Shown here: positions 319 to 40,979 of the stretch, in pieces
How positions within the stretch are numbered: the stretch's first letter is position 1
Layout: each line of letters starts with the position of its first letter
From: a virus
Virus record (IMG/VR): IMGVR_UViG_3300031952_000041
Location: 1 to 42,299 of that record
Length of the DNA stretch: 42,299 nt
Strand: one strand, 5' to 3'
Position numbers and translations under genes: made by a program
The notes under the pieces: generated by a model
Seen by the model: only the letters and a program-made list of their open reading frames with translations
What the model was told of the DNA's origin: nothing
Databases searched by the model: none

Positions 319-789
319 TTAAAAATTTCTATAAAAAATAATATTATCCTTACAAATATATCCAGATTGATTAATTAACTCATTAACTAAATCATCATTA
401 TATGTTTCTAAAAATTTAATTGTTTTAATTCCAGTATTAACAATCATTTTAAAACAAATAGAACAAGGAGAACAAGAAACATACATTGTTGAATTATTAC
501 ATTCTACACCATATTTAGCACATTGAATAATAGCGTTCTGTTCGGCGTGAACACCTTTACATAATTCAGCATTTTTTCCTGATTCAATTTTTAATTCTTT
601 TCTTTTACATATATCAATGTCAATACAATGTTCAGAACCTATAACAGCACCATTATAACCAGTAGCAAGTATTCTTTTATCCTTAACAATAATAGCACCT
701 ACTTTGCGAGATAAACAAGTAGAACGTAAAGAAATATCTTTAACAATATTAAAAAAATAATTATCCCAATTAATTCTTTCATTTTTCAT
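319..789 (-). CDS. dCMP deaminase (ComEB-like, zinc-dependent)
   Basis: A 156-aa cytidine/deoxycytidylate deaminase-fold protein. The catalytic zinc motif HAE is at residues 81-83 and the second half, SPCSIC, at 107-112 (Cys109 and Cys112). Further cysteines between the N-terminal strand and HAE (55, 61, 77) resemble the extra zinc site of phage dCMP deaminases. The N-terminus (LSRKVGAIIVKDKRILATGYNG) matches the family core. The enzyme converts dCMP to dUMP and so feeds dTMP synthesis. Its start overlaps the end of the upstream ORF by 11 bp, indicating co-translation, and a MazG-like gene follows. No thymidylate synthase is visible in the window. Length is normal for the family. Confidence 0.93.
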   Translation of the reverse strand: MKNERINWDNYFFNIVKDISLRSTCLSRKVGAIIVKDKRILATGYNGAVIGSEHCIDIDICKRKELKIESGKNAELCKGVHAEQNAIIQCAKYGVECNNSTMYVSCSPCSICFKMIVNTGIKTIKFLETYNDDLVNELINQSGYICKDNIIFYRNF

Positions 790-1648: not shown

Positions 1649-1677
1649 TTTGTAATCCTTTTAATAAAAAAATATTA

Positions 1678-1762
1678 TGGGGAATATCGGACTTGAACCG
1701 ATACGCGCAAAAAGCGCAACAGATTTTAAGTCTGCTATGTCTACCTATTCCATCAATTCCCC
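1678..1762 (-). tRNA. tRNA-Leu (UAA anticodon)
   Basis: Read on the minus strand, it starts GGGGAAT at 1762. It shows a D-arm with GGTAGAC, an anticodon loop CTTAAAA giving anticodon TAA, and a long class II variable arm with stem TGCGC/GCGC. The T-arm is CGG-TTCAAGT-CCG and the acceptor 3' strand is ATTCCCC plus discriminator A at 1678. CCA is not encoded. It decodes UUA, evidently the dominant Leu codon in this A+T-rich genome. Its first 10 bases also encode the last codons (Met-Gly-Asn-stop) of the upstream spoVG-like gene, so the tRNA must be cut out of the operon mRNA. Confidence 0.93.
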
Positions 1763-2073
1763 ATGTTTTTATTTTGAATTAAATCATTATCATTTAATAA
1801 ACTGTTATATTCAATAATTATTTGTTTCTTCATTTCTAATCTAAATTTAGAATTAACACAATGGAAAATATCTTTATAAGAACCATCTTTGACGCGGTGT
1901 TTTGGCATTTCAATATAAATAATTCCGTTTTCATCTTCTAATAATCTTATTCCGTGAACCATGAATAGGTTGTCAAAACAAATAGAAACAAATCCAAGAA
2001 TGAAATCATCTGGTTTTCTATATGCTTTTAGTTTTACTTTTAATTTTGTTATTTTAATATCTGTAATTTGCAT
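1753..2073 (-). CDS. spoVG: SpoVG family RNA/DNA-binding regulator
   Basis: A 106-aa SpoVG homologue. It begins MQITDIKITKLKVK, has the conserved strand VSICFDNLFMVHGIRLLE, then IYIEMPKHRVKDGSYKDIFH and NSKFR, in SpoVG order. Host SpoVG proteins are about 85-100 aa site-specific nucleic-acid-binding regulators of division, virulence and sporulation genes in Bacillota. The TGA stop lies inside the first bases of the tRNA-Leu gene, so the C-terminal NMGN is encoded by tRNA sequence. The copy lies in an early operon and may redirect host or phage gene expression; that role is inference. The family call is strong. Confidence 0.88.
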   Translation of the reverse strand: MQITDIKITKLKVKLKAYRKPDDFILGFVSICFDNLFMVHGIRLLEDENGIIYIEMPKHRVKDGSYKDIFHCVNSKFRLEMKKQIIIEYNSLLNDNDLIQNKNMGN

Positions 2074-7302: not shown

Positions 7303-8100
7303 ATGAATTTAGAAACAACAGAAAAACTAAACCAAGCTAATGAAGATGGTTTAGAATTATTAAGAAGAAAAATCATTAACGAAGATGATATAAATTTATT
7401 TATAGAATATGTAATTAAAGACGAAAAACATGGAGCAAAGATAAAACAAGATATAATTCATCTTGCCATGCAAGAACATATTGATTATTGTTTTTCTCAT
7501 AATATACTTTGCGGAATTTTAGCTCCTTGGGGTCATGGAAAAACTGGACAAATAATCGCTCGTGCATTACATATTTTAGGAAAAAATACTAATACAAGAA
7601 TTAAAATTTTATGTAATAATGATTCAACAGCAAAAGCACGTTTAAAGGTTATTGGTCAATATGTAGAAAAAGACAAAGATTTTCACCGTATTTTTCCTTT
7701 ATGCGTTCCTGAAAATAGGGAAAGATGGAATGCTCACGAATTAATAGTTAAGAGAGAAACAATTTCAAAAGATGCTTCCGTCCAATCGTATGGAGTTTTA
7801 TCTAGTGGTATAGGTGGCCGCACAGACCTTTTACTAGCAGATGATGTAATGGATATGAGAAATTGTATCTTACAACCAAAGCTAAAAGGACAAATAATAG
7901 ATACTTTTTTCAACACTTGGCTTAGTAGGGCTGATGGTATTGATTTTAAAGTTATATACATTGCTACTATATGGACTGAGGATGATTTAAGTTCACAATT
8001 AATTAAAAATCCTGCTTTTTCATTCCTTGTCATGGGAATTAATAATAATCTGAACGGAATTACTTGTCGTTATTATAATCGTTCAATTAGTTTAAATTAA
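7303..8100 (+). CDS. terminase large subunit, ATPase half (split gene)
   Basis: A 265-aa protein holding only the packaging-motor ATPase. Walker A is APWGHGKT (residues 74-81), Walker B with the catalytic acid is DLLLADD (175-181), and the coupling motif IATIWTEDD is at 220-228. A full TerL has about 430-550 aa with a C-terminal RNase H-like nuclease. Here the frame diverges after NPAFSFLVMGINNN and stops 15-20 residues later (YYNRSISLN). The missing nuclease is encoded separately at 9832-10569. The two chains presumably assemble into one motor. I see no intron core at the junction. Confidence 0.9.
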   Translation: MNLETTEKLNQANEDGLELLRRKIINEDDINLFIEYVIKDEKHGAKIKQDIIHLAMQEHIDYCFSHNILCGILAPWGHGKTGQIIARALHILGKNTNTRIKILCNNDSTAKARLKVIGQYVEKDKDFHRIFPLCVPENRERWNAHELIVKRETISKDASVQSYGVLSSGIGGRTDLLLADDVMDMRNCILQPKLKGQIIDTFFNTWLSRADGIDFKVIYIATIWTEDDLSSQLIKNPAFSFLVMGINNNLNGITCRYYNRSISLN

Positions 8101-8124: not shown

Positions 8125-8514
8125 ATGATTGATATTTTAACATCAGTAGACGAAATAAAATATTTTACTATAGCAGATAAAATACTAATTGAATCAGCAA
8201 ATTTAAAATTGGTAAATGATATTATTGCTGATGATGAAAATTATTATTCTATTTCTGTTATAGTTGATAAAGATAGTGATGGTGAAAAAGAGATAATTAA
8301 TATTGTCCTTAATGAAAATATTAATATAAATGAAAGAGAACATGATAATTCAATTATTGATTTTGATTTAACAAGTTTTTATGATGAATCTTATCCTTTT
8401 ATGCAATGCTATGTAAATTTATATTTTAATATAACCAAAACAGGAACTACATCTGGATTAGAAAATTCTATTTTTTATTTTAAACAATTTACAAAATGTA
8501 TTCCAGAAGTATAA
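8125..8514 (+). CDS. hypothetical protein inside the split terminase, 129 aa
   Basis: Not recognised. Predicted beta-rich, acidic, no membrane segment. The stretch SISVIVDKDSDGEKE resembles LSVIDKGADGLGN in the protein at 8974-9360, and both have about 130 aa with a similar distribution of strands, suggesting two diverged paralogues. AAAAAGG precedes the start. It is the first of four genes between the terminase halves. A small virion decoration or fibre protein is one possibility, from its late-operon position only. Confidence 0.65.
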   Translation: MIDILTSVDEIKYFTIADKILIESANLKLVNDIIADDENYYSISVIVDKDSDGEKEIINIVLNENININEREHDNSIIDFDLTSFYDESYPFMQCYVNLYFNITKTGTTSGLENSIFYFKQFTKCIPEV

Positions 8515-8545
8515 TAGAAATTAAAAAAAGATTGGATTTTTAAAA

Positions 8546-8953
8546 ATGTCATTAAAAAAAATAATTGATAATATACATGGAATTGAACTTGATTTCGGAC
8601 CAGGAAATTATTTAGAATTTAAATATATGTTTTATTCTGAATCTTGTAGAATTTTAAATATGTTTGTTATTCCAACAAAAGATGTAGGATTAAGTAATGA
8701 TGATTATTTTGTTGCTGAAATTTATAATATTGGTTTTAATAATGAAAAACAAATTTTAGTAGCAAGATTTACAAATAAAACAAATGATGTTAATGGATTA
8801 GCCTTAAATAAGTTTAAAGCAAATTTAATTAATATTTTCCATAATATTATTGGTAAAGGAGAATTTATTAAATTGGTTATTAAAAGTTATGCTCCAATTA
8901 ATAATATTAATCTTGGATATTTAAATCATATCAGCGAAATTGAATCACTATAA
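8546..8953 (+). CDS. hypothetical protein inside the split terminase, 135 aa
   Basis: Not recognised. Starts MSLKKIIDNIHGIELDFGPG, then beta-like strands (RILNMFVIPTKDVGLSNDDYFVAEI) and a hydrophobic C-terminal half with NIFHNIIGKGEFIKLVIKSYAP. Length and strand layout match its two neighbours, but sequence similarity is weak. The ribosome site is poor. It is the second gene of the insertion; no function is suggested. Confidence 0.62.
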   Translation: MSLKKIIDNIHGIELDFGPGNYLEFKYMFYSESCRILNMFVIPTKDVGLSNDDYFVAEIYNIGFNNEKQILVARFTNKTNDVNGLALNKFKANLINIFHNIIGKGEFIKLVIKSYAPINNINLGYLNHISEIESL

Positions 8954-8973
8954 AAAAAAGGAGTTTAAATAAA

Positions 8974-9360
8974 ATGTCATTATTAAGAGCATTTGATTAT
9001 GCTGTAATAGCATTATCTGGTAATATTGAATTACCAATTTATTTATGTATCGAAAATGCAATTATAGAAAAATTGATTTTTTCCCATGAAAAAGATGTTC
9101 CTGATTCTAATGTATTATATACGTGTTTAAGCGTTATTGATAAAGGCGCTGATGGTCTTGGGAATACTGAATTAGATTATATAACCAATAATCCAGATGA
9201 TGAAGAACATTATTTAGCATTTACTCCATATACTATTCATGAAATTTTACTTAACGTTCCTGTTGTAAAAAATCATGTTTACTCATTTAAAAAAGTTGAT
9301 ACTGGTGGTAATGTTGATTTAGGTTTTTCTGCTTGTGTTGTTAATGAAAGGAGATATTAA
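8974..9360 (+). CDS. hypothetical protein inside the split terminase, 128 aa
   Basis: Not recognised. AAAAGGAG precedes the start. Beta-rich; LSVIDKGADGLGN aligns by eye with the 8125-8514 protein, and IHEILLNVPVVKNHVYSFKKV occupies the same place as that protein's C-terminal strands. A compact virion surface protein or an assembly factor would fit this location, but this is inference. Confidence 0.65.
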   Translation: MSLLRAFDYAVIALSGNIELPIYLCIENAIIEKLIFSHEKDVPDSNVLYTCLSVIDKGADGLGNTELDYITNNPDDEEHYLAFTPYTIHEILLNVPVVKNHVYSFKKVDTGGNVDLGFSACVVNERRY

Positions 9361-9365
9361 ATAAA

Positions 9366-9827
9366 ATGGGAGAACCTATTTTAAATAGTAAAGAAAAAGA
9401 AGAATTAATTGAAATAATTCAAAATAAAATATTACCTTTAATAGAAGATTCTGTATTTAATAGTTTTACAAAAAACTTTACATTATATGGTAAAGATTTA
9501 TCATGTAAACTTAGAATGATTGCTTGTCAAAAAGTAATTCAATTTAATAATTTAAATGATTATGATTGTAAATTATGCTGGTTTAATTGGTTTATTAATG
9601 AATATAAAATTATAAATGATGATGAAGGAAAAAATGTTGCATCAAATATAAATTTTAATATAAAAAATGATGATATTAAATTATTATTTAATAATAAAAA
9701 TGTTAATGAAATAAAAAAACGCGATAGTTATAAATGTTATACATTACTATTTAAATCAATAAATGATAAAAATAAAAAACAATTTATTAATACATTTAAT
9801 GCTATGATAGATTATTTGAAGAAATAA
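9366..9827 (+). CDS. hypothetical protein inside the split terminase, 153 aa
   Basis: Not recognised. Helical and highly charged (SKEKEELIEIIQNKILPLIED at the start) with an aromatic/Cys stretch YDCKLCWFNWF near the middle and a Lys/Asn-rich C-terminal half. It differs from the three preceding beta-rich proteins. GAAAGGAGA provides a strong ribosome site. Its stop is only 4 bp before the terminase nuclease gene, which has a weak site of its own, so the two are probably translationally coupled. Confidence 0.62.
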   Translation: MGEPILNSKEKEELIEIIQNKILPLIEDSVFNSFTKNFTLYGKDLSCKLRMIACQKVIQFNNLNDYDCKLCWFNWFINEYKIINDDEGKNVASNINFNIKNDDIKLLFNNKNVNEIKKRDSYKCYTLLFKSINDKNKKQFINTFNAMIDYLKK

Positions 9828-9831
9828 AAAA

Positions 9832-10569
9832 ATGCAAATAAATGTAATAGAAATCCCTTTGTGGAGACCAAAATGGGACGAAGAAGCATTAATAAAACAT
9901 TTAGAAAGAGTAGGGAATATAGCATTTAATAGGGGATTAAGAAATATTGCATTGTCAAGTAAGGATAGTACATTTCCATCATTCGATAAATGTATTCAAA
10001 TCAAAACAAAATTTGAAGATGTAATTAATTCTGATTGTATATATTATTCTGGAGTAGATTTAAGCACGAAAAAAAGACCAGGAACTTGTATTTTTACATT
10101 AGCATTAGATAGAAAAAATAAAATATATATACCAGTAGATATTAGATATGGAAAATGGACTGGACCAAAATTGCTTGAGCAGATTTATTTAGTTCAAGAA
10201 GCATATTCACCTAAATCTTTTCTTGTCGAAAATAATGCTTTACAAGATATGGTAATTGATTTTTTAAAAGATGATGCAAAGAAAAAAAATCATTTATCAA
10301 CACCATTTATAAAAGGATTTTTTACTGGATCAAACAAACTTGATTTAGATAATGGTGTTAATGCTTTGGAAGTTGATTTTTATAATGAAAGATGGATAAT
10401 AGCAATGGGAAATAGAGAGCATAAATTAAATTGTAAATGCGGTTTTTGTAAATTCAAAGACGAAATTAATGGTCATCCTTTTTTTGAAACAACCGATACA
10501 ATAATGGCTTGCTGGTTAGCTAAAGAAAATGCAAGAAAATCTGTTTCTGGAAGAATAAGAGTATTATAA
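9832..10569 (+). CDS. terminase large subunit, nuclease half (split gene)
   Basis: A 245-aa protein corresponding to the C-terminal half of TerL. The N-terminus (EIPLWRPKWDEEALIKHLER) reads like the linker after the ATPase domain. The RNase H-like nuclease follows with acids at D76 (YYSGVDLS), E133 (SFLVENN) and D222 (ETTDTIMACW), which bind the two metals that cut concatemeric DNA. An unusual Cys cluster CKCGFC (201-206) lies between E133 and D222 and might bind zinc. The start follows the previous stop by 4 bp with only a weak GAAG site. The pieces at 7303 and here together give a normal TerL length. Confidence 0.88.
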   Translation: MQINVIEIPLWRPKWDEEALIKHLERVGNIAFNRGLRNIALSSKDSTFPSFDKCIQIKTKFEDVINSDCIYYSGVDLSTKKRPGTCIFTLALDRKNKIYIPVDIRYGKWTGPKLLEQIYLVQEAYSPKSFLVENNALQDMVIDFLKDDAKKKNHLSTPFIKGFFTGSNKLDLDNGVNALEVDFYNERWIIAMGNREHKLNCKCGFCKFKDEINGHPFFETTDTIMACWLAKENARKSVSGRIRVL

Positions 10570-10826: not shown

Positions 10827-13103
10827 ATGCCCACAATTTTAGATGAAATTATAAATAAAAATTTTCCACAAAATAAAGATAGTTTTATTCAATCTAGTGG
10901 TAAATCTAAAAATGCAAACATGGCATTATTAGAAAAAGATTCTATAGCATTTGCTAGTGGTGATTTTTTTAAAAATGCCTCTCCTGTTGAAGATAAAACT
11001 TTATTAGATTCTATTGAAGCTAATGCTTGGGTATATGCTGGTATTTATAAACTTGCAACTTCTGTAGCTAGTGTTCCTTTTCGCATATATTATCTTTTAG
11101 AAGATGGTTCATTGAATGAAATTACATATGAACCTGAATTTAAAGTTTTTATAAATCCTAATCAATGGTTTACAAGGTTTGATTTTTGGGAAGCTACAAC
11201 TATTTATCTTGAAGCTACCGGTAAATGTTTTTGGGAATTAGTAAAAAATGATCAAGGTTTAGTTTATGAAATGTATGCTTTAAATCCTTCAAGAATGGAA
11301 CCAATTAAAGACCGTAAAAAATTTATTATAGGATGGAAATATACTTTAGATAGTGGAAAAACAATTACTTATAATGTTGAAGATATAGTTTTTTTAAGAT
11401 ATTTTCATCCAACTAATCCTTATTCTGGATTATCTGCTCTAAAAGTAGGTTCAACATCTGTTACAATTGATATATATTCACAACAATATTCTCTAGGATT
11501 TTTTAAAAATTCTGGTCGTCCAGATGGATTATTAATTTATGATTCTGAATTATCTGATGAAGATTATGATAGAATAAGAAGAAATTGGAATAAAACACAT
11601 GAAGGAATAAGTAAAGCACATAGAATAGCAATTATTGAGCAAGGAATGGATTATAAACAAATTAGCATTCCACAAAAAGATATGGAATTTATTAATCAAA
11701 GAAAATACACTAGGGATGAAATTTTAGCTTGTTTCGGTGTTCCTCCTGCTTGTGTCGGAGTATTTGAAAGCGCAATTAAGGCTAATGCTGAAACGCAGGA
11801 AAGAATGTTCTGGACAGAAACAATGATTCCTAAATTAATAAAAATGTCTGAATCTGTTCAATTAGCAATTATGCCGATGATTTTGTCATCTTCCGAAACA
11901 AGAAGTAAATATGATATTAATAAAATATATACAATGTTTGATATTTCTAAAGTTCATGTATTAAGTGAAATTTGGCGCGCAAGGGAAGCATATCTTGTTG
12001 AACATGTTAAAAATGGAACAATGAGCAGAAATGAAGCAAGAATTATTTTAAATTATATTTATGGTGATATTATTAAATTCCTTCCATTTGAAGGTGGTAA
12101 TGATATTTATGTTCCATCTAATGTTACTCAAAAATTGGGAACAATAGAACCTACACAATCAGAAGAAGCAAAAATATTTAAAAGTATTGATAGTGTTAAA
12201 CTCGAACAAAAAATAAAAGAATTAAAAGCATTACCAGAAAAAGAAAGAAAACCTTTAAAGTTAATTAAACAAATTGAAGAAAATATAGGTGGAAATATTA
12301 ATTTTGATATGAATAATCCAATTGCTATACAAGTATTAAATACTAAACCAATGTTAATTGTAGCAAGTCAAATGAATAATGAGATAATAAGAAATATTAT
12401 TACTTATGGATTAGCTAAAGGATTAGGAACAAAAGAAATTCAAGCGGAAATATGGGATAGGTTTTCAAGTTCTTCTGAATTTTCACTTAATAGAACAAAT
12501 ACAATTGGAAGAACAGAAATAACACAAATTGCCAACTCATCAACTTTAGATTCATATAAACAATCAAATGTAATATCAAAAAAAATATGGTTAACAAGCA
12601 GAGATAAAAAAGTTAGACCAGCAACTAAATTTGATAAAGGTGATCATAAAAAACTTGATGGGGAAGAAAAAAATTTAAATGAAAAATTTTCTAATGGTTT
12701 AATGTATCCAGGAGAACAAACAAGTAGGCCGGAAGAAAATATTAATTGTAGATGTACTATGCTTTCCAAAATAAAAGAAGGTGTTGGATTTAAAGGAAAG
12801 ATAAATAAATTATTATCTGATGATAATGAAATTATGAAAACTATTTTATGGAAAAAATATATTGGAAAGATTAGCAACAATGAAATTATAATTAAAAATT
12901 TATTTTTACAAATGTTTGAAGAAATAGGAAGTAAATCAATAGAAAAATTAAAGAAGTTTACTCCAAATAAAAATAATGTTGATTTATTTTTAATTGATCA
13001 AACAGAACAAGTTGAAGAAATGGAAAAACTTTATAAACCATTAAAAGAAAGTTTATATAAAGATTTAGGTAGTTATGAATTAAAACAAATTATAGGAGAT
13101 TAA
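10827..13103 (+). CDS. portal protein fused to a MuF-type minor head protein
   Basis: A 758-aa two-part protein. Residues about 60-400 are an HK97-family portal, recognisable from ANAWVYAGIYKLATSVASVP, ATGKCFWELVKN, GGWKY-type strands and YTRDEILACFGVPPACVGV. It forms the dodecameric ring through which DNA enters the head. Residues about 500-650 match the MuF (phage Mu gpF/SPP1 gp7) domain: IGRTEITQIANSS, WLTSRDKKVRP, then MYPGEQTSRPEENINCRCTM. In many phages these are adjacent separate genes; here one reading frame without internal stop joins them. A charged helical C-terminus follows. Confidence 0.92.
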   Translation: MPTILDEIINKNFPQNKDSFIQSSGKSKNANMALLEKDSIAFASGDFFKNASPVEDKTLLDSIEANAWVYAGIYKLATSVASVPFRIYYLLEDGSLNEITYEPEFKVFINPNQWFTRFDFWEATTIYLEATGKCFWELVKNDQGLVYEMYALNPSRMEPIKDRKKFIIGWKYTLDSGKTITYNVEDIVFLRYFHPTNPYSGLSALKVGSTSVTIDIYSQQYSLGFFKNSGRPDGLLIYDSELSDEDYDRIRRNWNKTHEGISKAHRIAIIEQGMDYKQISIPQKDMEFINQRKYTRDEILACFGVPPACVGVFESAIKANAETQERMFWTETMIPKLIKMSESVQLAIMPMILSSSETRSKYDINKIYTMFDISKVHVLSEIWRAREAYLVEHVKNGTMSRNEARIILNYIYGDIIKFLPFEGGNDIYVPSNVTQKLGTIEPTQSEEAKIFKSIDSVKLEQKIKELKALPEKERKPLKLIKQIEENIGGNINFDMNNPIAIQVLNTKPMLIVASQMNNEIIRNIITYGLAKGLGTKEIQAEIWDRFSSSSEFSLNRTNTIGRTEITQIANSSTLDSYKQSNVISKKIWLTSRDKKVRPATKFDKGDHKKLDGEEKNLNEKFSNGLMYPGEQTSRPEENINCRCTMLSKIKEGVGFKGKINKLLSDDNEIMKTILWKKYIGKISNNEIIIKNLFLQMFEEIGSKSIEKLKKFTPNKNNVDLFLIDQTEQVEEMEKLYKPLKESLYKDLGSYELKQIIGD

Positions 13104-33274: not shown

Positions 33275-34051
33275 TTATTGACCTATTATTCTAAATTTAA
33301 TACCTTGCTTTGTTTCTTTTTGTTGATAATCATCCAATCTTCTAATTGATTCATTATAATATTTTTTATCTTTTTCTATACAAATAAAATTTCTTTGTGT
33401 ATTAATTGATGCTATGGCTGTTGTTCCACAACCAGAAAAACAATCTAATACTAAATCATTTTTATTAGAATATGTTTTAATCAAATGTTCAAATAATGCT
33501 ACTGGTTTTTGTGTAGGATGTAAACATATATGATCTTTTTTATAAGATAATAAATTTGTAGTATAAGTAAAATTGCTTATATATGTATAATTTAATAAAC
33601 CACATAAAGGATTTGCAATTGATTTACTAGAACAAAAACTATATTTAATTGGTTTTATTCTTTTTATTTTTTGTGCATTATATGTTATAGGTTTTCCATT
33701 ACATAAAACTATAATATCTTCTGTTTGCATCATTGGTTTATATTTTATAAGATGAAATCCATATCCTCTTAATTTATTCCATATATAATGATGTTTAAAA
33801 TAATTTATATTATTATATATTATTTTACTTGTTAATGGTTGAACACAAGTTAAAATTATACATTTATTATTTTTTATAATTCTTTTTAAATTATTAAATA
33901 ATAAATTAAAATCAATTTTATCTTTATCAAATCCGGCATCTAATATATTATATGGTGGATCAATTAAAATTAAATCAATAGATGAAGATTCTATTTTTGG
34001 TAATATATTGAAACAATCATCATTTATTATTTTATTTATAAATTGTTCCAT
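33275..34051 (-). CDS. DNA methyltransferase, N6-adenine/N4-cytosine type (beta class order)
   Basis: A 258-aa SAM-dependent methyltransferase. The catalytic motif DPPY is at residues 31-34, before the SAM-binding motif FSGCGT (205-210), which is the order of the beta class. HPTQKP (178-183) precedes motif I as in many small phage enzymes. It modifies an amino group of adenine or cytosine. No restriction partner is present, so a role in protecting phage DNA from host restriction is likely. The start overlaps the deoxyribosyltransferase-like gene by 16 bp. Target sequence cannot be read. Confidence 0.9.
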   Translation of the reverse strand: MEQFINKIINDDCFNILPKIESSSIDLILIDPPYNILDAGFDKDKIDFNLLFNNLKRIIKNNKCIILTCVQPLTSKIIYNNINYFKHHYIWNKLRGYGFHLIKYKPMMQTEDIIVLCNGKPITYNAQKIKRIKPIKYSFCSSKSIANPLCGLLNYTYISNFTYTTNLLSYKKDHICLHPTQKPVALFEHLIKTYSNKNDLVLDCFSGCGTTAIASINTQRNFICIEKDKKYYNESIRRLDDYQQKETKQGIKFRIIGQ

Positions 34052-34407
34052 GATAATCTTTTTAATGTTTCATGTAAAGAATCATAAGAATATAAAATTG
34101 AAGTTGCAAGTTGTTTAGTGAAATTATATTTAGTAATATTACTATTTAATAAATCCAATATTATAATTGTTTTGTTTTTAGCGAAACAATAACCTACCTC
34201 GAAAAGACTATTTAATTCATCTCCTGTTTCCAAAATTAATAAACATATATCACATTTATTGATTAATGTTAAATCAATTGGCACATAATATTCTGAATCT
34301 TTTTCTTCTAATCCCATGTTTGATTTATATGGTTCAATAAATTTTATACCATCTATTTCTTTAAATTTTCTTTCAATAACTTTTCCTGATACAAATACAT
34401 TAATCAT
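34036..34407 (-). CDS. nucleoside 2-deoxyribosyltransferase-like protein
   Basis: A 123-aa flavodoxin-like domain. It opens MINVFVSGKV, has YYVPIDLTLINKCDICLLIL (residues 40-59), where D45 lies in the motif P-x-DL..I..CD, and NSLFEVGYCFAKNKTIIIL (66-84) with the catalytic-type Glu70. These are the family features of nucleoside deoxyribosyltransferases, which swap bases between deoxynucleosides. At 123 aa it is short. The ATG overlaps the primase-helicase stop (ATGA). In a phage with several dNTP pyrophosphohydrolases it may produce or remove unusual nucleosides. Confidence 0.7.
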   Translation of the reverse strand: MINVFVSGKVIERKFKEIDGIKFIEPYKSNMGLEEKDSEYYVPIDLTLINKCDICLLILETGDELNSLFEVGYCFAKNKTIIILDLLNSNITKYNFTKQLATSILYSYDSLHETLKRLSWNNL

Positions 34408-37310
34408 TTCTTTTCTCCTAATTCTGTTTGTAATTTTCTTAGAATATTCCTAAATGGTTCTGTTACAATCCAATAAGAATGTTCTTTTTTTATACATCTA
34501 TTGATAAGTAAAAATTGTCTTGTTTCTCTTACTTCTTCCCTATCTCCGGTTTGTAAACTATCCATAATATCATCAAATTTTATTTTATAATTTCCTAACA
34601 TTTTATCTACAAAATATTTAGCATCATATTTATTTGTTAAATCTGGTTGTGATGAAAAACCATTTTTAATTTTATTTATTATTTGATTTTCATTATCAAC
34701 AGTAGTTTCTATTATTTTTGATTTACTATAAGATGTATATGCCAAAATAGGATTTGAATATATTTCTATTAAATAATCAACAATAAATTCAACATGGTAA
34801 TCATCAACAATAACATTTTCACCATCACTAGTCGAAAATGTTGCTATAGCTATAGCTACTGCTAATCTTGCAAATTTAATTCTTTGTTCATTAGGATGAA
34901 CAATTGGAATATCACTTGAAAACATTTTTCCGAAAATCATAGAATAATTTAATATTAATTCTTTTGCTTCTTTAGTAAATTGAATTTGTTTTTCCGTTCT
35001 ACTCCAAGCCCATAAAACAAGCTTATTACATAAATTAGATGAAAATTTATGTTCAATATTTTCTTCAATATGTTTATTGATTGTTTCTAATGTAACATCA
35101 TTTTGTGAAATTGCTATAGCAAAATCAAATCTAGCTATATCTTCTGGTTTTCCTATTAATGTTTTTACTGCTTCAATTCCTGTTGTATATTCGCTTAATG
35201 ATCTAAATCCACGTGGGTTAGAAATCCAAATAAGTCTAGTTCTTGCTAGTGTTTTTCTGGTTCCACCAGCAATGGTTCTTTCTGCTAAGCATGATGATCT
35301 TATTCCTGAAAGATTAGCAATAGTATCAGTATCAATTCCATCTGCTTCGTCAAGTATAACTAATCTTCTATCATTTCTAGGGATAATTCCCCATGTTAAA
35401 ATTTTTCTTGATCCTATGTCAAATGTCCCACCTATTAATCCTGGTATTGTTGCTTTTTCACAATTAATTATTTCACCTAATTTATAATGATTGATAAGAC
35501 GTTTAGCAGTAACACTTTTTCCTGTTCTTGTATCGCCAATAATAAGGCATTCTACATGAGATTTTTCTATTTCTACATTTTGAAATTTAAACTTTAAAGC
35601 TGAATGGTATACCAGATCAAATGCAATAAATAAATCCATTCGATCATATATTTGAATAATATTATTACTCAAATCATTATATTTCTCTAAATAAAGTTGC
35701 TTTATAGATTCTTTAGTTTTTTCTTTTGGTTGAAATATTTTTAATTGTTCAATTAAATTACTATCAATTTTAAAACTATCAATATCTGTTTCTGAGTTTG
35801 AAATTTTATTAACCATAATAATACTATGTTGGTCCCTAGGGTCTGGAGTAGTAATTCCTATAAATTCATAAGTATTGTTTAGGATTAATCCTTGTCCTAA
35901 AAAGAAAATTTTTCGGTATGTATCTTCATAATTTTCCGCTTTAAAATCTAATGCTGGACAGAGATAACATTCTTCTATATTTTGAGCATTAGTAATTGTA
36001 ATTGTAAAATTAGAACAATTTATTATTCCTATTTTTTTCTTTATAATTCCTATTTTTTGTGTTTGGCTAGAACTTACATATTCAAGTATATCTTGATCAT
36101 TTTCTTTGTATTCTATTATATATTTACCTTTCATTGCAAGTAATTTACAAAATGAACAAGTTTTATCTTTACTCATATCACATTCAATAACCATTTTTTT
36201 AGGAACAAGATATGGATTTAAATCTTTACCAGCACAAATAGCTTTAAACTTAACTATTTTATTATAATATTTATCAAGTGAAGATTCATATAATGTAACA
36301 TTATTAATATTTTCATCAATAATATTTAAAGTTTTTGTTCCTTTTTCTGTTTCTGATATTTCAAATATATTTGTATTTTTTAATAGTTCAATAAAATCTT
36401 TAATGGAATTATTATAATTTAATATATAATCTGTAAAATCTTCACCTTTTTTTTCTACTGGTAATTTAACTATTTTAATTGTTTTAGCAATATTATATAA
36501 ATTTGTTGCAATTAATATGGAACCATCTTCACCGGTTTTATCGTTATCATATACTATAACTACATTTTTATCTTTAAAATAATTATTCCATTTAATATTC
36601 CATGATTTCTCTCCACCAGTTTTTGTTACTGCTCCATCAATTCCTAAAGTATTGGCAAGCATACAATCAAATTCACCAGCAAAGATAAATATAATTTTTT
36701 CTTTTAATGCTAAAAATGGCCATAATCTAGTTTGATTATGTCCCTTTACTCCTAATACTTTTAAACCATTATCTCTATCTTTTTTGTGTTTACTGTGTTG
36801 TCTTACGTTTAATAAATTTCCATTTTCATCAAATATCGGGAAAGTAGTCCTTTTAGTTTTTATAGAATATCCTATTTTAAATTTATTTATACATTCATAA
36901 GATAATCCTCTTTGTTTTAAAACATAATTTAATGAATCATCAATATTATCAATTAAATCCTTATTACATTTCTCAATATCAACAATCATATTATTTAAAT
37001 ATTGTTGTTCTTCTGTTCCATAAGAACCAATATCAATATTAAATTCTTTTGAAATATCTATTATAGATTGTTTAAAATCACATTTTTTTAATTCCATATA
37101 ATAATCAAATATACTTCCACCCTTATTACAACTATGACAAAACCATAAACCTTTCTTTAAATTTAAAGAAAGGCTAGGTGATTTATCTTCATGAAAAATA
37201 CAAGCTACATTATATTCATCAATATATTCATGAAAAACAAAATTTTCATTATATCTTTGAAAAAATTTTGCAATATTTATTTCATTTAGAATTTTTTCCT
37301 TGATATCCAT
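34404..37310 (-). CDS. primase fused to an MCM-like AAA+ helicase
   Basis: A 968-aa replication protein. Residues 37-61 are a CHC2-type zinc ribbon (C37, H40, C58, C61). Residues about 203-290 are TOPRIM with E212 (AGEFDC) and D254/D256 (YDND). A middle region (about 345-515) with further Cys clusters (CSFC, CYLC) reads like an OB/zinc module. Residues about 580-740 are an AAA+ motor with Walker A GDTRTGKS (591-598), Walker B LVILDEAD (649-656), sensor N697 and Arg finger R726. The run LAERTIAGGTRKTLARTRLI plus ISNP parallels the MCM ISIAKAG...LNART..AANP signature. It would make primers and unwind DNA at the fork. Confidence 0.85.
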   Translation of the reverse strand: MDIKEKILNEINIAKFFQRYNENFVFHEYIDEYNVACIFHEDKSPSLSLNLKKGLWFCHSCNKGGSIFDYYMELKKCDFKQSIIDISKEFNIDIGSYGTEEQQYLNNMIVDIEKCNKDLIDNIDDSLNYVLKQRGLSYECINKFKIGYSIKTKRTTFPIFDENGNLLNVRQHSKHKKDRDNGLKVLGVKGHNQTRLWPFLALKEKIIFIFAGEFDCMLANTLGIDGAVTKTGGEKSWNIKWNNYFKDKNVVIVYDNDKTGEDGSILIATNLYNIAKTIKIVKLPVEKKGEDFTDYILNYNNSIKDFIELLKNTNIFEISETEKGTKTLNIIDENINNVTLYESSLDKYYNKIVKFKAICAGKDLNPYLVPKKMVIECDMSKDKTCSFCKLLAMKGKYIIEYKENDQDILEYVSSSQTQKIGIIKKKIGIINCSNFTITITNAQNIEECYLCPALDFKAENYEDTYRKIFFLGQGLILNNTYEFIGITTPDPRDQHSIIMVNKISNSETDIDSFKIDSNLIEQLKIFQPKEKTKESIKQLYLEKYNDLSNNIIQIYDRMDLFIAFDLVYHSALKFKFQNVEIEKSHVECLIIGDTRTGKSVTAKRLINHYKLGEIINCEKATIPGLIGGTFDIGSRKILTWGIIPRNDRRLVILDEADGIDTDTIANLSGIRSSCLAERTIAGGTRKTLARTRLIWISNPRGFRSLSEYTTGIEAVKTLIGKPEDIARFDFAIAISQNDVTLETINKHIEENIEHKFSSNLCNKLVLWAWSRTEKQIQFTKEAKELILNYSMIFGKMFSSDIPIVHPNEQRIKFARLAVAIAIATFSTSDGENVIVDDYHVEFIVDYLIEIYSNPILAYTSYSKSKIIETTVDNENQIINKIKNGFSSQPDLTNKYDAKYFVDKMLGNYKIKFDDIMDSLQTGDREEVRETRQFLLINRCIKKEHSYWIVTEPFRNILRKLQTELGEKK

Positions 37311-37373: not shown

Positions 37374-38186
37374 TTAAAATGGGATATCATTTGTTTCATT
37401 TTCTTCGTTTGGTGTTATATTAATTTGTTCATTATCATTTGTATCTATAATAAACTTTTTAGCTTTAATCATTGTTTTCATAAATTGTAACCAATATTTA
37501 GACCTTTCTAAATCTTGTTCATTTATATTATCACATTCATTTACCTTTAAAGTATAAAATCTTCCCTTGTCATTTCTTGTTTCTACTGTTTCAACCAATC
37601 TTGAAATAGTATATAATTCTTGTCTTTTTCTAAAAACAAGATTAATAATATTCTTTGCTGTTTGGGCATTTGTTCTTTGGAAAGGAATAATAAATGGGAA
37701 ATCTTTTTCAGAACCTACATTAACATTTGATTGAATACAAGCAAAATTAAATGTTCTATTACATAAACCATATTTACTTTTCCCTTTTTCAATTTTATCT
37801 GCTGGTTTAATATTTTCATAACAGTTAATACAATCAGAATTAATTGGATTTGGTGCTGATGGAAATTTACCATCTTGTGAATAACATTTAAGCGGATCGC
37901 CTATATCATCACCATATAAAATTCTAGTGGTAAATGAATAAATAAAAATACATTCAATTGTTTTGTATTCTTCAAATGTAATTGAATCATACAATGAACC
38001 AGGAACAATCCCTTTATCCCTTGCCTTATTTGATTGATCTTGACAAATAAAAACAGTAGATAATTTTAAATCTTCAATACCAAAATCGGAAATTGATTCT
38101 GGTAATTGAAAATTAACTTTGTTAATCATTTTATTTTCATTATCTGATTTAACAATTGATCCATTACCATTTTCTTCTTTTGTCAT
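37374..38186 (-). CDS. putative ssDNA-binding protein with SSB-type C-terminal tip
   Basis: A 270-aa protein ending NEENETNDIPF, an acidic tail with the hydrophobic DIPF tip by which SSB proteins recruit replication and repair partners. The middle carries a Cys set (C101, C119, C122, C142, C150) that could form a zinc site as in T4 gp32-like proteins. LYTISRLVETVETRNDKGRFYTLKVN reads like OB-fold strands. AAAAAGGAGA precedes the start and the primase-helicase gene follows. Fold is inferred, the tip is clear. Confidence 0.6.
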   Translation of the reverse strand: MTKEENGNGSIVKSDNENKMINKVNFQLPESISDFGIEDLKLSTVFICQDQSNKARDKGIVPGSLYDSITFEEYKTIECIFIYSFTTRILYGDDIGDPLKCYSQDGKFPSAPNPINSDCINCYENIKPADKIEKGKSKYGLCNRTFNFACIQSNVNVGSEKDFPFIIPFQRTNAQTAKNIINLVFRKRQELYTISRLVETVETRNDKGRFYTLKVNECDNINEQDLERSKYWLQFMKTMIKAKKFIIDTNDNEQINITPNEENETNDIPF

Positions 38187-38975: not shown

Positions 38976-40979
38976 TTATTTAAGATAAGGTTTATTTGAT
39001 ATGTTGTATCCAGTTAACCCAAGAATTTTTCTTAAATTATCTTTTGTTATAATATCTGCTACATTCTTTTTCTCCTTTAAAACAACACCTAAAATATGAT
39101 AGTCAATTGTTGCTTCACCATCTGGTCCAACAGCAATGTAATCAATATATGTTACTTTATTGTGTTGTTCACTTCCTTTTCTATGTGTTCTATCTTCACT
39201 TTGTAGACGATTCAATAACGTATAGTCATTGCTAAAATAAATTACAGTATTAGCAGTATATAAATCAATTCCCAATCCACCACTTCCCTGTTGTCCTACA
39301 AACACCTTGATTCTTTTATTCAAAAAATCATCTACTGCTTTTGATCTATCAGCATCTTTTACTTTTCCATAACATAATCCATAACTAATCTTTTTCTCTT
39401 CAAGTAATTTTGCTATTGATTGAATGTCATTAACAAACCTTGCCCATATAACAAGTTGATTTCCATTATATAATATGTTATCTAAATCATCATTCAATTC
39501 TTTTAGTTTTGGATTTTCTTTAAATTTAACAATCTTTCCAAATTCATCTTTGCTGAATCCACTTGTTATTTGTGATAGTCTTAATAATTTTGTTACAATT
39601 ATTTGTGCATCAATTCTTTTCTTTTCCTTTTCTTCATTTTCAATCCAAGCTATTAACATATCTCGCATAGAACAATAGGCTTTAAATTGATCATCGGTAA
39701 GTTGAATTTCTCTTTGCTCATAAAGTTTTGGTGGTAAATCTAAACATTCTGATTTTAAAAATCTTACTCCAAGATTATAAATACAATCGCTTATTTCTTG
39801 CATTGCTTCTTTATTTTTAATTGCCCATTTCCAACTATACTGTTCTTTACTAAAATACTTTTGTAAAAATCCATCAAATGAACCACCGAATGTATTTCCA
39901 TTATCTAAAAATAAAAATTGGCTAAATATATCTTGCGCTCCTTGCGTGATTGGAGTACCATTTAATATAATTTTATACTTAACCATCCTTCCTAATTGAT
40001 GGATTGCCTTGCTTCGCTTAGCTATAGGATTTTTTATCTTACTAGATTCATCAAGAATAACCATAGTTTTATTATCGCATAATGGTAAAATCTCTTCTTT
40101 CATTACATTAAATAATTCATATCCAATAATAAAAACATCTACCTTTTGATTTAAAATAATATGCCTTTCCTTTTCTGTTCCTTCTATTACCATTGCTTTT
40201 AAATCTGAATAAATTTCTATTTGTTTTTTCCATACTGAATTAGAAATTGATTTAGGACAAATTACAAATGCCCTATTTATAGAACCATTCCTTATTCTTT
40301 CCTTTATTGCTACTATAGTAGGATAAGTTTTTCCGGTTCCCATTTCGCTTAAATTTGCAAAATATGGTAACTTAGTTGAATATTCAAGCATTATTTTTTG
40401 GTGATTGAATGGTAAAAATTGTGTATTCCAATTTTTGTTTATAGTAGGAATTAAATTAGCATCTTTATTATATACATTAATTATTTTTTTTGCTTCTTGA
40501 ATTTCAATTTTTTCTTCTATCTTGTTTTTGAATGCTTCAAGGAATGCAATAGTGAAAAAACAATCTTTAAACAACCTATTTATCAATTTAAAGTTATCTA
40601 GGGTATCTTTGATTGTTGGGTAGTAAATTTTGGTTCCTTCTAACATACATCTAAATTCATATCTTTTTTGTTTTATTAATCCTACTCTATCATCAGAAGA
40701 GTATTCAAATTTCTTTGGTATTAATTCAACACCATCAATAATTTCTGGATTGAAATTACTTCTAAGTTTATTTAACAATTCTGGATTTTTCTCTTGGATA
40801 AATTCCATTTCTTTTTTGTTATAAAATTTAGAAGGTATTAATGGGAAGGAAATTGTGATTGGATTTGCGATTGATGGTTTGTAATCAATAATAATGTCTT
40901 CATCAAAAGGAGTTATCCTGTTGCTGTTAGCATCATATTTAATTCTTAACTTACTGCTTGTAAATGAATTTAGTAGCAT
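38976..40979 (-). CDS. SNF2-family DEAD-like DNA helicase/translocase
   Basis: A 667-aa SF2 helicase. A unique N-terminal region of about 185 residues precedes the motor. FNHQKIMLEY (191-200) acts as the Q-like motif; motif I is EMGTGKT (212-218), motif II DESS (310-313) and motif III ILNGTP (338-343). The second RecA lobe has NQLVIWARFV, VFVGQQGSGGLGIDLYTA and the motif VI NRLQSEDRTHRKG. These proteins move on duplex DNA and remodel forks or protein-DNA complexes. It is the first gene of the replication operon, and its ATG lies only 3 nt past the predicted start of transcription. Confidence 0.9.
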   Translation of the reverse strand: MLLNSFTSSKLRIKYDANSNRITPFDEDIIIDYKPSIANPITISFPLIPSKFYNKKEMEFIQEKNPELLNKLRSNFNPEIIDGVELIPKKFEYSSDDRVGLIKQKRYEFRCMLEGTKIYYPTIKDTLDNFKLINRLFKDCFFTIAFLEAFKNKIEEKIEIQEAKKIINVYNKDANLIPTINKNWNTQFLPFNHQKIMLEYSTKLPYFANLSEMGTGKTYPTIVAIKERIRNGSINRAFVICPKSISNSVWKKQIEIYSDLKAMVIEGTEKERHIILNQKVDVFIIGYELFNVMKEEILPLCDNKTMVILDESSKIKNPIAKRSKAIHQLGRMVKYKIILNGTPITQGAQDIFSQFLFLDNGNTFGGSFDGFLQKYFSKEQYSWKWAIKNKEAMQEISDCIYNLGVRFLKSECLDLPPKLYEQREIQLTDDQFKAYCSMRDMLIAWIENEEKEKKRIDAQIIVTKLLRLSQITSGFSKDEFGKIVKFKENPKLKELNDDLDNILYNGNQLVIWARFVNDIQSIAKLLEEKKISYGLCYGKVKDADRSKAVDDFLNKRIKVFVGQQGSGGLGIDLYTANTVIYFSNDYTLLNRLQSEDRTHRKGSEQHNKVTYIDYIAVGPDGEATIDYHILGVVLKEKKNVADIITKDNLRKILGLTGYNISNKPYLK

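Follow-up and report, generated by a model that had tools for sequence, protein, structure and literature searches.

A predicted helicase-primase of tailed phages joins a DnaG-type primase to a divergent MCM

A protein of 968 residues, encoded by a tailed phage, combines a DnaG-type primase with a divergent MCM helicase in one chain. It is very probable that it would act as the phage's own, self-contained helicase-primase at the replication fork. The same MCM half is also found joined to a primase of an unrelated superfamily.

Gene and domain layout

The gene lies on the IMG/VR virus contig IMGVR_UViG_3300031952_000041 (42,299 bases, 24% G+C), which was analysed in its whole length and is called the window here. 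The reading frame starts with ATG, and the domains follow each other in the order CHC2 zinc finger, TOPRIM primase core, linker and a portion that resembles a whole MCM. Within this last portion a four-cysteine N-terminal domain with OB-like strands is followed by an AAA+ motor and a C-terminal winged-helix-like domain (Table 1).

Table 1. Features of the primase-MCM protein and of two neighbouring genes. Conservation counts refer to a 61-member family of primase-MCM relatives.
Feature	Position in window	Strand	Basis
CHC2-TOPRIM primase and MCM helicase, whole gene	34404-37310	-	ORF; same architecture in aligned relatives
CHC2 zinc finger, residues 6-94 (C37, H40, C58, C61)	37029..37295	-	PF01807 1.7e-14, above Pfam cut-off
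DnaG-type catalytic core with TOPRIM, residues 105-300 (E213, D255, D257)	36411..36998	-	PF13155, TIGR01391, DnaG structure match
MCM N-terminal-type domain (Cys cluster and OB-like strands), residues 332-530	35721..36317	-	Profile alignment to MCM from residue 428; near-whole-chain fold match
Putative four-Cys zinc site (C377, C385, C388, C432)	36015..36182	-	Conservation
MCM AAA+ core, residues 546-740	35091..35675	-	PF00493 positions 17-205 at 35106-35675; profile and fold searches
Walker A GDTRTGKS, residues 592-599	35514..35537	-	Sequence; K598 61/61
Helix-2-insert beta hairpin, residues 627-640	35391..35432	-	Modelled strands 627-632 and 635-640 between two helices
Walker B, residues 650-655 (ILDE 652-655)	35346..35363	-	E655 61/61
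Pre-sensor-1 beta hairpin, residues 675-688	35247..35288	-	Modelled strands 675-680 and 683-688 preceding sensor-1 strand
Sensor-1 N698	35217..35219	-	61/61; same column as Asn in 9/10 archaeal/viral MCMs
Arg finger R727 in EDIARFDF	35130..35132	-	61/61; same column as Arg in 9/10 archaeal/viral MCMs
AAA+ lid with sensor-2-like R815, residues 741-870	34701..35090	-	Conservation
C-terminal winged-helix-like domain, residues 880-967	34407..34673	-	Three helices, then beta hairpin 940-943/946-949 (model); within MCM profile alignment
Pam3_Gp34-like partner gene, 270 aa, candidate ssDNA-binding protein, ends NDIPF	37374..38186	-	PF23977 weak; relative 8.4e-19
SNF2-type helicase, replication cluster of primase-MCM	38976..40979	-	PF00176 4.5e-26

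Role at the replication fork

The phages that encode this protein have no DnaB of their own. The DnaB_C domain (PF03796) was found in none of 28 records, the window record included and seven of them being annotated phage genomes, and the control was positive in 14 of 14 genomes. The nearest relative that has been studied is BcMCM, a prophage protein with an archaeo-eukaryotic primase (AEP) in front of its MCM, and this is a 3'-5' helicase with primase and polymerase activity (PMC4538821). The absence of DnaB and the activities of BcMCM together make a fork helicase-primase belonging to the phage itself appear the most likely role.

Most of the relatives also encode their own polymerase. PolA was found in 12 of the 28 records, and DnaE in 12 of the 16 records searched for it, all of which were picked from those without PolA. 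The window record gave no PolA, DnaE or PolB, and may be a fragment. The family A DNA polymerase of Bacillus phage BSTP12 and Weizmannia phage Youna2 is split between two ORFs (about positions 28-217 and 220-381 of PF00476). Host DnaB could be used for part of the replication.

The lack of DnaB in the 28 records would also fit an initiator or loader ATPase, which opens the origin or loads the host DnaB and is not itself the fork helicase, and AAA+ loaders are used by other phages. However, it is fork helicases that are typically fused covalently to a primase, the architecture appears to be that of a whole MCM, BcMCM unwinds DNA, and no origin-binding domain was recognised in the protein, which makes a role as initiator or loader unlikely.

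The primase half

By its CHC2 finger and by the Glu and DxD of its TOPRIM domain, the N-terminal third belongs to the DnaG-type primases, and it is predicted to synthesise primers. The four zinc ligands are preserved in 52-59 of the 61 relatives, and the catalytic residues are intact, with E213 and D255 present in all relatives and D257 in 60. The Toprim_2 domain (PF13155) matches residues 209-296 at 2.6e-5, above the Pfam cut-off, whereas the match to the dnaG model TIGR01391 (7.6e-29) is under the equivalog cut-off of that model. When the PDB was searched with the family profile, the DnaG structure 2au3 was retrieved at 1.4e-26.

Exonuclease and RecA-like genes adjoin the relatives, and it could be argued that the TOPRIM half works as a nuclease or has degenerated, and that the protein is an enzyme of repair or recombination in the vicinity of the relatives' SNF2, Cas4-like and RecA-like genes. 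We find this very unlikely, since the CHC2 finger and the DnaG-specific core, both of them marks of primases, are preserved, and since dedicated repair genes are already present. A primase that would work at the fork remains the preferred reading of this half.

The motor half is an MCM

The preliminary description had proposed, from the reading of one sequence, a CHC2-TOPRIM primase fused to an MCM-like AAA+ helicase, and the Pfam primase domains together with the profile and fold matches to MCM agree with it. In single-protein scans the window protein gave no MCM match, neither to MCM_OB nor to MCM_lid, and on the Pfam MCM model (PF00493) it reaches 15.4 bits, as compared to a cut-off of 23.3. 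The explanation is that the protein is too divergent when taken alone, so that a family profile is needed. Three relatives pass the cut-off by themselves: those of BSTP12 (27.7 bits), Arthrobacter phage Wollypog (24.0) and contig L087 (27.2).

With a profile of seven sequences, and with E allowed up to 10, all P-loop proteins matched in the PDB are MCMs. With the profile of 61 sequences the best 60 matches are primases and MCMs only, the best MCM being at 4.3e-11. The profile alignment to a reference set of ten archaeal and archaeal-virus MCMs scored 99.1% (E 6.1e-19) over 476 columns spanning residues 428-948, at a sequence identity of about 17%. An AlphaFold2 model of the primase-MCM (pLDDT 89.3, pTM 0.67) was searched against the PDB, and the best 50 fold matches were all MCM chains. 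Several of them are covered nearly in their whole length, for instance 8x7t_A with 538 of 582 columns and a TM of 0.65 by target. In the reverse direction, an approximate MCM consensus sequence used as a probe retrieved archaeal-virus MCMs from among the phages, and then Bacillus and Microbacterium members of the primase-MCM family.

As judged by these profiles, MCM is the best match among the AAA+ families. That the motor should come from another clade (SF3/D5, RuvB, Mg-chelatase/ComM or MoxR) and only resemble MCM is hardly credible: the low Pfam score of the window sequence, the fact that bacterial YifB also scores on PF00493, and the placing of MCM, Mg-chelatase and MoxR in the same helix-2-insert group speak for it, but no such clade gave a better match, none of its proteins appears in the two sets of PDB profile matches or among the best 50 folds, and the MCM match goes beyond the AAA+ core, into the OB region on one side and the C-terminal domain on the other.

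The middle region and the C-terminal domain are thus also MCM-like, and therefore the motor half appears, from the profiles and the model, to be nearly a complete MCM protein, more than the motor alone. Compared with MCM on their own, neither the N-domain (13%) nor the C-terminal domain gave a significant match, and the two domains were assigned because of the full-length profile and fold match; the model and the full-length alignment agree on the winged-helix-like region.

The motifs of the motor are intact. The AAA+ motifs read from the sequence in the preliminary description, with the Arg finger in RFD, turned out to be invariant, as the Walker A lysine, the Walker B glutamate, N698 and R727 occur in every relative, and between Walker B and sensor 1, where it placed an MCM-like stretch, the model has the pre-sensor-1 hairpin. 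Its Cys-rich middle region is equally real, with C377, C385 and C388 each present in 61 of 61 relatives and C432 in 60. R815 is found in 53 of the 61, the remainder having Lys, and the corresponding column is Arg in 9 of the 10 archaeal/viral MCMs.

Distribution and the two primases

MCMs had been described beforehand as rare in bacterial mobile elements, and this did not hold. Relatives are encoded at 224 or more IMG/VR loci. In a phage collection, 47 records gave a match covering 80% or more of the window protein, and 51 gave one to the MCM half when an AEP-MCM served as query. The hosts include Bacillus, Weizmannia, Microbacterium, Arthrobacter and Paenibacillus. According to works cited in two papers (PMC5862659; PMC4538821), MCMs of bacterial phages have been on record since 2005.

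The relatives are annotated as 'DNA primase', as 'primase/helicase' or, in PHROGs, as unknown function (phrog_18685, 2.2e-74). The TOPRIM-MCM proteins of Microbacterium phage Krampus, Bacillus phages BSTP12 and BSP7, Weizmannia phage Youna2 and Arthrobacter phage Wollypog have the same fusion and architecture as the window protein, the aligned ones being 27-33% identical to it in full length, and there is no essential difference between them. The GenBank records of these phages leave the MCM part unnamed. Hundreds of phage proteins that now go by 'DNA primase' or 'unknown function' (phrog_18685) could be given a new name.

Bacillus phage vB_BboS-125, the B. velezensis plasmid p3 and 35 IMG/VR loci have the MCM half in common, and that of vB_BboS-125 is about 27% identical to the TOPRIM-MCM relatives over 600 residues. 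The primase of these AEP-MCM proteins is of the archaeo-eukaryotic type (PF01896, 3.9e-10), and it is present in both annotated proteins, from vB_BboS-125 and p3, and in 14 of 14 IMG/VR loci tested. A query with AEP retrieved AEP-MCM rows only, and thus no AEP at the N-terminus of any TOPRIM-MCM member, and a TOPRIM query retrieved TOPRIM-MCM rows only. Since the same MCM half occurs with either the DnaG-type primase or AEP, one phage MCM clade carries, by sequence comparison, either of two unrelated primases. Such a lineage is evidence for primases as interchangeable modules.

The phylogeny with known MCMs, proposed in the preliminary description, was run with 49 rows. The bacterial-phage MCMs fall into a single clade (100/100), set apart from the archaeal MCMs by a very long branch. 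The AEP rows nest weakly among the TOPRIM rows, but in AU tests monophyly was rejected neither for TOPRIM-MCM nor for AEP-MCM (p 0.147 and 0.177), so that either primase may have come first.

Two Candidatus contigs were also noted. At L087:2435-4363, on a Candidatus Gracilibacteria contig (code 25), an MCM of this clade has no primase in its ORF. At L088:4644-8828, on a Candidatus Fermentibacteria contig, an AEP-MCM has a LAGLIDADG insert within the Walker A of its MCM, probably an intein.

Neighbouring genes

In 22 records, the window included, a homologue of the 270-residue protein is encoded a short way upstream of the primase-MCM gene, and several members of this family end in DIPF, like bacterial SSB. 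The AlphaFold2 model is rich in beta strands, and the best match in a fold search (E 0.094) is not significant. Our guess from the C-terminal tip and the model is that the protein may be an SSB, and it would then probably coat single-stranded DNA beside the primase-MCM. Krampus gp46 was considered as a homologue of it, and this was not supported. Helicase genes likewise lie near the primase-MCM relatives, as the SNF2-type gene does in the window.

At 33275-34407 (-) a nucleoside deoxyribosyltransferase-like gene stands beside one for an N4/N6 DNA methyltransferase. At 319-789 (-) a dCMP deaminase is encoded. These three possibly make up a set for nucleotide or DNA modification. A gene for tRNA-Leu (TAA) was seen at 1677-1763 (-).

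The tailed-phage genes of the window are those for terminase, portal, head protease, major head protein, tape measure and endolysin. The large terminase is split into an ATPase part at 7303-8100 (+; phrog_38 positions 271-470) and a nuclease part at 9832-10569 (+; phrog_38 positions 485-646), with four small unknown ORFs between them (8125-9827). The gene at 10827-13103 (+) joins the portal (PF04860) and a Mu-F-like head morphogenesis domain (PF04233) in one protein.

Comparison with known systems

The window protein shares with archaeal and eukaryotic MCMs the AAA+ motor with both hairpins, the sensor-1 Asn and the Arg finger, and probably also the N-domain and the C-terminal winged helix. 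It differs from them in its low identity, its long branch and the lack of an MCM_OB or MCM_lid match, in the extra primase fused to it, and in R671 and R692, which are invariant in the primase-MCM family and absent from the archaeal set. The C-terminal two thirds would form a hexameric AAA+ ring that unwinds the phage replication fork at the expense of ATP, presumably in the 3'-5' direction measured for its AEP-MCM relative BcMCM, and the N-terminal third would make RNA primers at the same fork. The N-tier of cellular MCMs faces the fork, and a primase sitting on this tier would prime the displaced lagging strand.

The AEP-MCM fusions (BcMCM, vB_BboS-125 and plasmid p3) have the phage-specific MCM half, the Cys cluster and the C-terminal domain in common with the window protein, but their N-terminal primase is of the unrelated archaeo-eukaryotic type and not CHC2-TOPRIM. 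Such fusions in bacterial phages and plasmids have already been published (PMC5862659; PMC4538821). We found no published DnaG-type, or TOPRIM, primase on an MCM in the literature searched, and this fusion may be undescribed.

T7 gp4 and DnaG-DnaB resemble the window protein in that a CHC2-TOPRIM-type primase is joined to a ring motor, but here the motor is an AAA+ MCM. The motor of T7 gp4 and DnaG-DnaB has the RecA fold, is DnaB-like and moves 5'-3' on the lagging strand, and DnaG-type primases are known as the partners of such 5'-3' DnaB helicases. MCM, in the known cases, moves along the leading strand in the 3'-5' direction. If the phage MCM does the same, the fused primase must reach the other strand, as happens at the forks of archaea and eukaryotes. 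We lean slightly towards a broader reading, according to which a 3'-5' MCM ring with a DnaG-type primase would drive the forks of a widespread group of tailed phages, with a polarity opposite to that of the studied DnaG-DnaB systems. The primase on the MCM would there have been exchanged between two unrelated superfamilies, and for that reason priming would have to take place on the strand that the ring leaves out, as with CMG-Pol alpha. A primase and an MCM in a single chain would allow the fork geometry of archaeal/eukaryotic type to be studied directly.
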